Shown here piece after piece: positions 28,709 to 32,423 of a DNA stretch of 36,170 nucleotides. Each line of letters opens with the position of its first letter. Position 1 is the stretch's first letter. The position numbers and the translations under genes were made by a program. Source of the stretch: a virus. Location: the IMG/VR virus record IMGVR_UViG_3300029952_000082, positions 1 to 36,170 of that record; one strand, 5' to 3'. Below the pieces are notes generated by a model. That model was not told where the DNA came from. It saw nothing but the letters and a program-made list of their open reading frames with translations, and ran no database searches.

Positions 28709-30151
28709 ATGTCAATCGATGATGATAATGAAGTTGTCCCAGTTGAAGATACAATTGTTCCACCAGAAGTGACTATCGTTCCAGTAGAAGATGAAGATTC
28801 GGAAGTAACTGAAGAGACGTCTGAAGAAGTAACACCGGCACCTGTTATTGCCAAGATTCGTTTATTTCTAGAATCCCTAGACACCGAAGAATTATCTGCT
28901 TTGGTAGAGGCACGCCGTCGTCGTCTAGGAGATGATGCTTTTATTGTTTCCGCAACATCTCCGGGTAATTATGACTATTTATTGTCTGAACTCAGTGGTG
29001 CTCATAGCATCGAAGCAGATCGGTCACGTGCTTCTATTTCTTCTATCAAAGACTCTTCTTTGTTCAATACCAAATTGGTTCGGGGCGGAAAGACCATTCT
29101 TGGTACCATGAAGCCACATCGTGCGGCTGGAAATGGTGCGATGTTGACAGGTGCCGACGCATTGGCAGCACTTGCAATTCGTGATAAATGGATGAAACGT
29201 GTTCCACTTTATAACAGTGGATTTTCTGTTGATATCATTGCACCAACATTGTCTGCGTTGAATACTTTCTTTAATAAAGCCCATGATGTTACCAATTCGT
29301 ATGGTCGACAGTTTGGTGGATTGTTCTTCTATTTCCACGACTTGATGATTAAAGAAGCCATTGTAGAATTGGTACTTCCATTGATCATCAATTCTACTCT
29401 ACGCAATGCAAAACGTGGTGACACCCTAGTTCGCAATATCAAACTTGTTGATCTCAAACTGATTCTGAATGCCATTGGCGCATTGATGTTTCCTGATGGT
29501 TTTAATTTTACGCATGTATGTTCGAACCCAGATGGTTCCTGTACCCATCATGAAGAGGTGTTGATTGACATCAACAAACTTGCACGATATGATTTTAGCA
29601 AGTTGACTGATGACTGTATTCATCACATGACTCGTCTGACAGATATTACACCAACCCAATTGAACATCTATCAGGCACAGTTGGGCTTCAATGAAGTTGA
29701 GATTCGATACAAGCAGTATGGGTTCACCATGCAAATGCCAAGTCTGAATGACTATTTAGACTACGGTCGTAGCTACAATAGTGAACTTCTTAGTAATGTA
29801 TTTGTTTCAAATCCAGATGCTGTTGTTCGGGCTGTTATGTTCTCGTATTATCAGATCTATACTCCCTTTATAGCAAAACTTACCTTGTATAATGAGGATG
29901 ATTCTGTTGATTTTTGGACACTAGACAAAGATACTATCACTCATATGCTCCTGCGTCTCCAATCAGAAGACACAGAAGGCACATTGATCAAAAACTTCGA
30001 TGACTTCATTGCCAATTCTGAAATCGGTCGTATCTGTTATCCTGCAGTTGCATGTCCTGCTTGTAACTATGTACCAGGGAGTGGCTATTATACAGTCGAT
30101 CCGACCTTGGCTTTTTTTATTCAATCGCTAATGAAATTAGACCAGACCTGA
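28709..30151 (+). CDS. Putative structural/baseplate-type protein, zero-frame product, 480 aa
   Basis: It has an acidic Val/Glu/Thr-rich N-terminus (about 1-45), a helical middle, and two Cys/His clusters: HVCSNPDGSCTHH (269-281) and CPAC (449-452) followed by DPTLAFF (464-470). The 'CPxC...DPxxFF' ending faintly recalls T4 gp26/gp51-type baseplate assembly proteins; this is a low-confidence inference. Just after FF the zero frame stops within 11 codons (IQSLMKLDQT), while the -1 frame stays open for another 131 codons. A T_TTT_TTT heptamer sits exactly there, so the full product is probably about 601 aa. GGAG lies eight bases before the ATG. Confidence 0.8.
   Translation: MSIDDDNEVVPVEDTIVPPEVTIVPVEDEDSEVTEETSEEVTPAPVIAKIRLFLESLDTEELSALVEARRRRLGDDAFIVSATSPGNYDYLLSELSGAHSIEADRSRASISSIKDSSLFNTKLVRGGKTILGTMKPHRAAGNGAMLTGADALAALAIRDKWMKRVPLYNSGFSVDIIAPTLSALNTFFNKAHDVTNSYGRQFGGLFFYFHDLMIKEAIVELVLPLIINSTLRNAKRGDTLVRNIKLVDLKLILNAIGALMFPDGFNFTHVCSNPDGSCTHHEEVLIDINKLARYDFSKLTDDCIHHMTRLTDITPTQLNIYQAQLGFNEVEIRYKQYGFTMQMPSLNDYLDYGRSYNSELLSNVFVSNPDAVVRAVMFSYYQIYTPFIAKLTLYNEDDSVDFWTLDKDTITHMLLRLQSEDTEGTLIKNFDDFIANSEIGRICYPAVACPACNYVPGSGYYTVDPTLAFFIQSLMKLDQT
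30112..30118 (+). other. -1 frameshift slippery heptamer T_TTT_TTT
   Basis: In the zero frame the codons read GCT TTT TTT ATT, so the heptamer is in the canonical X_XXY_YYZ phase. A -1 slip moves ribosomes into the frame running to 30513. An indel in a seven-T run, by mutation or sequencing error, would give the same picture. Confidence 0.6.
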
Positions 30152-30513
30152 TTTCAGATGTAAAATATCAAGACTATATCACACGGCTACGATATATTCA
30201 AGATACCGTTTTATCTGGAGTTAAAAATGGTATCGATCGGTTCTCTGCAATCATTGCTTTCAATGAATCATTTTATCAACTGCGCACAACTGCACCTTCA
30301 ATGTTAAATGATGTTGCATATGTTTCAAGAACTGGATATCACAATACCATTTGTGAAATTGATCCACTTGCAAAACTAGTTGCACAATATCTCGTTACCA
30401 CAGATTGGGTAGAACGATATGGTCTTTCCTATGAGGCCACTCTGCAGTTAACTTATGCAGAGTGGATTCGTATGCAAAATGCTCTCAATTCTCGATCAAC
30501 CGTACCAAGTTAA
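30118..30513 (+). CDS. -1 frame continuation of the 28709 gene, 131 codons
   Basis: From TAT at 30118 the frame reads YSIANEIRPDLISDVKYQDY and on to NSRSTVPS-stop, a well-formed helical sequence with normal composition. Its only internal ATG (30301) has no ribosome-binding site and would discard the first half, so it is better read as the C-terminus of the upstream protein made by frameshifting. It ends 29 bases before the chaperonin ATG. If treated as a separate gene, the 70-aa ORF is 30301-30513. Confidence 0.65.
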   Translation, partial: YSIANEIRPDLISDVKYQDYITRLRYIQDTVLSGVKNGIDRFSAIIAFNESFYQLRTTAPSMLNDVAYVSRTGYHNTICEIDPLAKLVAQYLVTTDWVERYGLSYEATLQLTYAEWIRMQNALNSRSTVPS

Positions 30514-30542: not shown

Positions 30543-32423
30543 ATGCTCGACGGCCAACAAACGATTACTGGAAATCACAACGTTACCAACACCTTGAGTG
30601 GTACAGAGTTCTACACTCACGTGATTTCAACATGTCAACAGATTTATGATGTGTTGGTAGCACATTGTGGTCCCCATGCGACAGATGCACTTATCATTCA
30701 ACCGAATGATGGACGAAATCTCAAAGATCCAATCTATGCCATCTTCACCAAAGATGGCATTAACATTGTTCGATCTATCGAATTTGTAAGTCCCATTCAA
30801 AAACACATCCAAAACTTGGTTGCTTATGTTGGTAGTCGCGTTGATGCAAAAAGTCATGACGGCACAACAACTGCTATGTTGTTCTTTACCTCGTTGGTTA
30901 TGGAGTATTACACCAACATTAACGATTGTTTGGTAGCAGGACAATTACCAGACTATCGGCTGATGAAAAAAGAGTTACATACCACCTTTCAGTTGCTGAT
31001 TGATGGGTTAGAAGAGGCAGTTGTCACTGTTGATAGTTTTGCTAAAGACAAACAGCTTACACGAAAAGAAGCTGTTCGTTATGTCGCATATCATCAAGCC
31101 ATGCTGTCTAGCAAAGGTGATACCGAACTATCTGATGCTATTGTAGAGGTGGTTGAAACTCTACCTGTCGAGTTGTATGGATTGTTTTCTGTTTCTCAAT
31201 CAAAGATTGAAACGGATCATCGATTCACAGTAACTCATGATGATTTTGATTTCACGATGAATGTCATCAGCAATCTTGATGATATGAATCATCGAATGGG
31301 AACTGAGTATCTGGCCGAGTCGTGTGATCTGATTGTCTCTGAAGATGATCTGGTCCGTGGCAACCCAGCACTTACGTTGATCGAAGATCATCTTACAAAT
31401 GCACATGCAGGAAATCGTACTTGTGATTTAGTTATTGTCACTAAATCCATGGATGCAACTCTCATCGGTATGATTTCAACGTATAATCGTAGCAACAAAT
31501 ACAAAATCATTGTATTTCCTTTCAGCACACACAAACCCTATAGTAGTCGTGTTACTTTGTTAAGTGCCGTTGCTGCAGTAGCAAGTGTCTCTTCCTTGGT
31601 AGAACACGTCATTGATCCAACCCTTCCCTACCTCATTCAGAATGCCAAAGTGCATTATCACAATCGTCGATTGTTCCTAAGCAATCTCTATCAGAAAGAT
31701 GGTTCTCCTTATCATCCCTCATTTCAGGATAAACATCGTTTTCTACCATATACCCTAATGGTAGCAGATATTCGAACTGAACTTGAAGGATTCACATCTG
31801 GTCGTCGTCGTATTGAAACTGCGGCCGATAGTGCCATGTATGAAGACTATGTTGACATCTATCGTCGAATGATTAGTTCGGATATTCGCAATCTTCAGAT
31901 TTCTGGAATGCGTCATGATACCCTTGCAGATCATGATGTTCTGCAAGATGCATTTGGTGCTGTGTTATCTTCGCTTGAACATGGTTTTGTATTCGATGGA
32001 TATCTCAAACTTCAGATTGCACTCGATCTAGAAGGGATTAGTAGTGATTCCGAGATGATCGTTAGTCGAACTGTTTGGAATGTTTTGAAAACTGTGCATA
32101 AGCGGGATGCACAAACCATAATTAAAATTGGACTTCAGCCAGTCCAGGAGCTTTCACAATTTGCTGACCGAATGGATATGGTTGCTTATCAAGTCAAAGC
32201 TAATCATAACTCATATCTTTACTATCCAGTGGATAGTGATCCTACTAAGCGACTTGATGAAACACAACCAGTTGGTAATGGGTTGATTCCAGAAGTAACG
32301 CCTGTTCTTCAACCAGCCGATAGCTATCGTGAATTGTTCAAGCGCGTAGAAGATCTACTGCCAAAGTTGATCAACACAAGCCGTGCTATTATTCCGAATA
32401 CGGTTAATGCAACAACGACCTGA
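30543..32423 (+). CDS. groEL: GroEL-like group I chaperonin, divergent, 626 aa
   Basis: An ATP-driven protein-folding chamber subunit. Landmarks are GPHATDALI (43-51), FTKDGINIVRSIEF (68-81) and SHDGTTTAMLF (104-114). Also present are MNHRMGTEYLAESC (the apical 'fdrGyiSpyF' region) and DAFGAVLSSLEHGFVFDG (469-486). The three catalytic Asp residues of GroEL (D52, D87, D398) align with D71, D106 and D469. The GGG nucleotide loop (414-416) is degenerate (DGY). At 626 residues it is longer than bacterial GroEL (about 548) and lacks the GGM tail. No GroES gene is in the window, as for the known phage EL and OBP chaperonins. The ATG at 30543 follows a weak AGGGA; an upstream ATG at 30462 overlaps the previous gene. 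Confidence 0.93.
   Translation: MLDGQQTITGNHNVTNTLSGTEFYTHVISTCQQIYDVLVAHCGPHATDALIIQPNDGRNLKDPIYAIFTKDGINIVRSIEFVSPIQKHIQNLVAYVGSRVDAKSHDGTTTAMLFFTSLVMEYYTNINDCLVAGQLPDYRLMKKELHTTFQLLIDGLEEAVVTVDSFAKDKQLTRKEAVRYVAYHQAMLSSKGDTELSDAIVEVVETLPVELYGLFSVSQSKIETDHRFTVTHDDFDFTMNVISNLDDMNHRMGTEYLAESCDLIVSEDDLVRGNPALTLIEDHLTNAHAGNRTCDLVIVTKSMDATLIGMISTYNRSNKYKIIVFPFSTHKPYSSRVTLLSAVAAVASVSSLVEHVIDPTLPYLIQNAKVHYHNRRLFLSNLYQKDGSPYHPSFQDKHRFLPYTLMVADIRTELEGFTSGRRRIETAADSAMYEDYVDIYRRMISSDIRNLQISGMRHDTLADHDVLQDAFGAVLSSLEHGFVFDGYLKLQIALDLEGISSDSEMIVSRTVWNVLKTVHKRDAQTIIKIGLQPVQELSQFADRMDMVAYQVKANHNSYLYYPVDSDPTKRLDETQPVGNGLIPEVTPVLQPADSYRELFKRVEDLLPKLINTSRAIIPNTVNATTT

Follow-up and report, generated by a model that had tools for sequence, protein, structure and literature searches.

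In the 36,170-nucleotide virus record IMGVR_UViG_3300029952_000082 (hereafter the window), one gene in all likelihood gives two products, short and long, through a programmed −1 frameshift; as in lambda G/GT, they would be forms of an assembly chaperone for the tail or baseplate hub. The ribosome-slippage site is very probably the heptamer T_TTT_TTT in a 480-aa ORF. Most ribosomes would complete the 480-aa protein, and some would slip back one base on the heptamer, with tRNA-Phe re-pairing, and read 131 further codons to give a 601-aa form (470 + 131) that carries an extra C-terminal domain. The two forms would probably cooperate as an assembly chaperone of the tail or baseplate hub (compare lambda gpG and gpGT), and the same arrangement recurs in phiKZ-like jumbo phages, as PHIKZ077 and a frame partly annotated as PHIKZ076.4. 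If true, this supplies a tail-assembly chaperone for the phiKZ-like phages and makes frameshifting testable in phages that separate transcription from translation.

The heptamer stands in exact zero-frame phase in the ORF (gcT_TTT_TTT_att), the zero-frame TGA is the 11th codon past it, and the −1 frame, open from 30067, ends with TAA (30511–30513), 29 bases before the ATG of a chaperonin gene at 30543 (Table 1). All this agrees with the preliminary description, which had also claimed that the downstream ORF lacks a start with a ribosome-binding site: ATG, GTG and TTG are absent from the window's −1 frame before codon 61 past the slip, and the 20 bases 5' of the ATG at that codon (30301) hold no Shine-Dalgarno-like stretch. 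As a background we took 27 window ORFs, hand-chosen from the ORF list, which contain 18 in-phase X_XXY_YYZ heptamers. Only the one at 30112–30118 leads past its own gene's stop in the −1 frame; at the other 17 that frame reaches 0–36 codons and closes before the gene's stop.

Table 1 Features of the putative frameshift locus in the window.
Feature	Position	Strand	Basis
Short form, zero-frame ORF, 480 aa, phrog_4585	28709–30151	+	ORF and profile match
Cys271, Cys278 and His280, all unchanged across an alignment of 21 sequences; possibly a metal site	29519–29548	+	inference
Cys449-x-x-Cys452, just 5' of the slip site, likewise unchanged across the same 21 sequences; possibly a metal site	30053–30064	+	inference
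Slippery heptamer T_TTT_TTT in zero-frame phase, coding Phe469-Phe470 (30113–30118)	30112–30118	+	sequence
−1 extension from the slip onward, 131 codons followed by TAA	30118–30513	+	sequence
Zero-frame stop TGA	30149–30151	+	sequence

The window's short form matches phrog_4585 with an E value of 1.1e-38, and this profile was matched in 27 of 27 members scanned. With the window protein, tblastn found 106 phage records, all below 60% identity; with the LucasX homologue it found 203, of which 202 were below 60%. The carriers examined are phiKZ-like jumbo phages and their relatives, with named homologues that include phiKZ PHIKZ077, PhiPA3 gp074 and 201phi2-1 gp136, and others in Goslar and Desertfox. 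We compared 56 loci: the window, L002, 26 named phage loci (L003–L005, L007–L011 and L042–L059) hand-picked for diversity among the matches listed (the best 40 of 106 and the best 60 of 203), and 28 IMG/VR loci (L014–L041), several of whose genes are covered from the tblastn match onward only. Excluded from this set were L001 and L012 (the window's gene), L006 and L077 (the window and its contig again) and L013 (the same as L002).

All 56 loci have a −1 frame that runs on for 131–181 codons past the site, and their extensions form 31 clusters at 50% identity. For codon analysis, nine near-duplicates (L016, L017, L020, L023, L024, L027, L032, L038 and L040) were removed by hand, leaving 47 genes, in which 504 of the 20,774 in-frame positions outside the site are followed by a −1 frame open for at least 130 codons. 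The +1 frame is mostly short and reaches 102 codons in one G+C-rich locus. The heptamer is T_TTT_TTT in 18 clusters, T_TTT_TTC in seven, G_TTT_TTT in four, and A_TTT_TTT and A_CTT_TTT in one each; T_TTT_TTY is thus found in 25 of 31 clusters and an imperfect heptamer in six. Hence, the canonical heptamer is not universal, given that A or G precedes TTT_TTT in 11 loci (Psa21, PhiPA3, Phabio, FLC9 and seven IMG/VR loci) and that pVa-21 has A_CTT_TTT, coding Leu-Phe. Where A or G precedes the Phe codons, just one of the two tRNAs would re-pair fully.

Codon choice at the site is distinctive. The Phe-Phe pair there begins with TTT in 46 of 46 genes, the 47th being pVa-21, whereas elsewhere in those genes only one of 24 Phe-Phe pairs does so, and single Phe codons elsewhere in the 47 genes are TTC 504 times and TTT 262 times. 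A T precedes the Phe codons at the site in 37 of the 47 genes. Together, the TTT-first bias and the upstream T indicate that codons, not merely residues, are kept at the site. In five phages, SPLA10, Totoro, FBKp24, BUCT660 and Ea277G (L007, L009, L010, L051 and L053), the zero frame runs for 37–44 codons past the site instead of 8–21, and the short form therefore has a longer tail.

Homopolymer runs are prone to sequencing error, and the preliminary description had named a one-base indel in the T run as the alternative to frameshifting; such an indel would have arisen in sequencing or assembly and broken up a single continuous gene. A second contig of 86,569 bases (L001) differs from the window by one mismatch in 11,440 bases, away from the slip site, and has identical bases at the T run. 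The L002 protein is 70% identical to that of the window, and its gene retains the seven Ts (T_TTT_TTT) and a 133-codon extension. The agreement of L001 and the layout of L002 make an indel very unlikely; with the same two-frame layout in 54 other loci, we consider it effectively ruled out.

The pair formed by the window and L002 also allows selection to be assessed. The upstream part has a dN of 0.23 and a dS of 1.66, and the extension a dN of 0.27 and a dS of 1.48, with a dN/dS below 0.2, so that, as far as these two sequences tell, purifying selection is acting on both parts. Over the extension region the −1 frame is free of stops, and every other frame has 6 to 14. Four of the ten zero-frame residues past the site are identical between the two, and the window's zero-frame end can be aligned to those of five homologues. 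Evolution of the extension is fast: a tblastn search found eight phage records with that of LucasX and none with that of the window. Support for a programmed −1 frameshift yielding two C-terminal forms is strong, coming from conservation across 56 of 56 loci, from the codons chosen at the site and from the purifying selection seen in the extension. What the sequences themselves show is the site, the open frame, the conservation of both and the selection (window and L002); from there we infer slippage, its efficiency and the chaperone function.

Database annotation suggests another arrangement, in which the −1 ORF is a gene in its own right, downstream and separately started, and the T run is incidental or merely couples the two. 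A separate small CDS is annotated in the −1 frame in 25 of the 26 phage records examined, the exception being PhiPizzaParty; several begin with ATG, and the one in Desertfox begins 28 codons ahead of the slip. None of the short forms in the records listed is flagged as joined. However, the annotated starts are inconsistent both in codon (ATG, GTG or TTG) and in place, the other 24 lying 8–85 codons after the slip, and the 1,025 codons between the slip and these later starts contain no stop (log10 P −20.9 in a base-composition model that ignores relatedness). The window and L002 share no common ATG, GTG or TTG in the −1 frame before codon 61, and the TTT TTY codons at the site are conserved. 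Separate genes with their own starts had been proposed beforehand as the observation that would count against frameshifting; the separate annotation is indeed found, but the starts differ, and no stop interrupts the −1 frame between the slip and any of them. With variable starts and a frame open right up to the slip, we rejected an independent gene as the main reading and regard it as highly improbable. If frameshifting is true, the two-gene annotation of these 25 records is corrected, and many more may need correction, given that 203 phage records hold a short-form homologue. The phiKZ extension has 165 codons, the last part of which is annotated as PHIKZ076.4 (80 aa). That start is seemingly misplaced (L043:3221–3718), given that upstream of it the frame stays open for 85 more codons, as far as the PHIKZ077 slip site.

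The long form could also arise from RNA polymerase slippage on the T run, giving an mRNA one U longer or two shorter. Such slippage is established in other genes and is a topic of PMC5009743, as far as its available text goes, and the T run is 7 or 8 long in 34 of the 47 genes. In the remainder it is 6 (12 of 47) or 5 (1 of 47), which is short for such slippage, and both the codon phase and the TTT TTC forms suit ribosomal slippage. Polymerase slippage is accordingly the weaker reading, because of the 13 of 47 genes with runs of 5–6, and we judge it quite improbable. As for ribosomal slippage, a stimulatory RNA structure is common, though not universal, at −1 frameshift sites. In 34 chosen loci the 60 bases past the site have no excess stability (mean z −0.50 vs −0.44 in control windows; −2.37 in the window and −1.18 in L002), and folding without pseudoknots gave no shared structure, including no common stem. 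By eye, the 24 bases 5' of the site hold no shared Shine-Dalgarno-like stretch. Since no mRNA structure is conserved 3' of the slip site, one might speculate, at rather long odds, that in phiKZ-like phages, where the frameshift is unannotated in the records examined, the ratio of short to long form is set by the nascent chain or a phage-altered host ribosome and not by the message.

A structural model of the short form, confident mainly at residues 160–480 (mean pLDDT 68 overall), suggests a function. Foldseek against predicted viral proteins gave uncharacterised phage proteins as top matches, for example those of Special G, Eowyn and RP12, followed by T4-like baseplate hub assembly chaperones at a probability of 1.00 and a TM by target of 0.45–0.59 (E values: ACP17 2.0e-5, CP220 4.9e-5, SP-15 6.8e-5 and VH7D 5.1e-4). 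A fold match alone does not establish function, yet because of this match the short form is itself probably a large tail-assembly chaperone, and not a protein of another type, as the preliminary description had supposed. In the DT01 record the homologue is named after T4 gp26, as a putative baseplate hub assembly protein. Against the PDB, Foldseek gave no match at E 0.001, and the best VIA-align Z was 3.0 among 211 chains aligned.

T4 gp26 and gp51 both match PF12322 (T4_baseplate). That family was not among the 17 found for 27 members (Pfam, E up to 1), and therefore we do not file the phrog_4585 protein as a PF12322 member; an alignment-wide Pfam scan gave chance-level matches only. Profile comparisons with gp26 and gp51, made with single sequences, with small T4-like sets and with 37 gp26 and 37 gp51 relatives, left a sequence link unconfirmed, the best hhalign probability being 38% (with the small sets). 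Because these comparisons fail, it is the fold match that carries the T4-like link.

Besides the fold match of the short form to T4-like hub assembly chaperones, T4 gp26 likewise ends in CPxC and Phe-Phe. T4 gp51 is longer and has an additional family match at its C-terminal side, to phrog_634 over residues 147–246. The difference is that T4 has two separate genes and the phiKZ-like phages would have one gene and a frameshift. The available text of PMC10885494 describes a short and a longer gene replacing frameshifting in some T4-like phages. Among 37 T4-like gp26 genes, 28 have a terminal EFF, and in 27 of these TTC comes first; L075 is the sole one with TTT TTT, and there the −1 frame closes at once. 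In 31 of the 37 a stop ends the −1 frame at most 9 codons past the last Phe; in the other six it runs for 136–137 codons, probably into gene 25. From the fold match, the two-gene precedent of T4-like phages and the gp26 contrast, we propose that phiKZ-like phages have a tail or baseplate-hub assembly chaperone in two forms, with the phrog_4585 protein as the short one and the putative frameshift product as the long one. If true, a single fold family arrives at two product forms in two ways, through a frameshift here and through separate genes in T4. We would guess that the extension is the counterpart of gp51's extra part; comparisons of the extension with gp51 give no support for equivalence, and the extension model is poor (mean pLDDT 61).

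Tail assembly chaperones are characterised by binding to the tape measure protein and by absence from virions. Frameshifting in lambda has been measured and the lambda gene precedes the tape measure gene, as a tail assembly chaperone gene customarily, if not by definition, does. Here, in contrast, frameshifting is proposed from sequence, the short form is 480 aa long, and it is a chaperonin (GroEL, phrog_5725), not a tape measure protein, whose gene comes next. Frameshifted tail chaperones are well known, and in the best-known likeness, lambda gpG/gpGT, a −1 extension gives two forms of one protein, as proposed here (PMC5009743, available text). For the tail assembly chaperones of Vandenendeviridae and Andersonviridae, the available text of PMC12846349 reports a poly-T motif, GTTTTT, ending the short form, a downstream part annotated separately and a −1 frame open in every genome examined. 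These three traits recur here, although those are other phages with a locus beside the tape measure gene, likened by description and not by sequence. In jumbo phage G, the tail chaperonins gp181/gp182 are annotated by translational frameshift, as the available text of PMC8570332 has it; that locus lies near the tape measure gene, is absent among the phiKZ-like matches listed and is again likened by description. Among the literature matches listed, we found no report of this frameshift in phiKZ-like phages, which Vladimirov 2022, on T4-like chaperones, may mention. The words 'frameshift' and 'chaperone' are absent from the main text, as available, of the nucleus-forming phage core-genome paper, and 'frameshift' and 'tail assembly' from the available text of a 2026 jumbo-phage review. 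We rate this as a known trick in a new setting: the short form is much larger, the gene is not beside a tape measure gene, and the family is not so annotated.

The chaperonin gene that follows the locus (30543–32423, + strand) encodes a divergent GroEL-like protein, matched by phrog_5725 at E 1.2e-17 and by Pfam Cpn60_TCP1 below the cut-off. The window also encodes an RNA polymerase beta subunit-like protein and a divergent family B DNA polymerase, and between 11824 and 17089 (− strand) it carries two separate topoisomerase II subunit genes, one gyrase A-like and one gyrase B-like.
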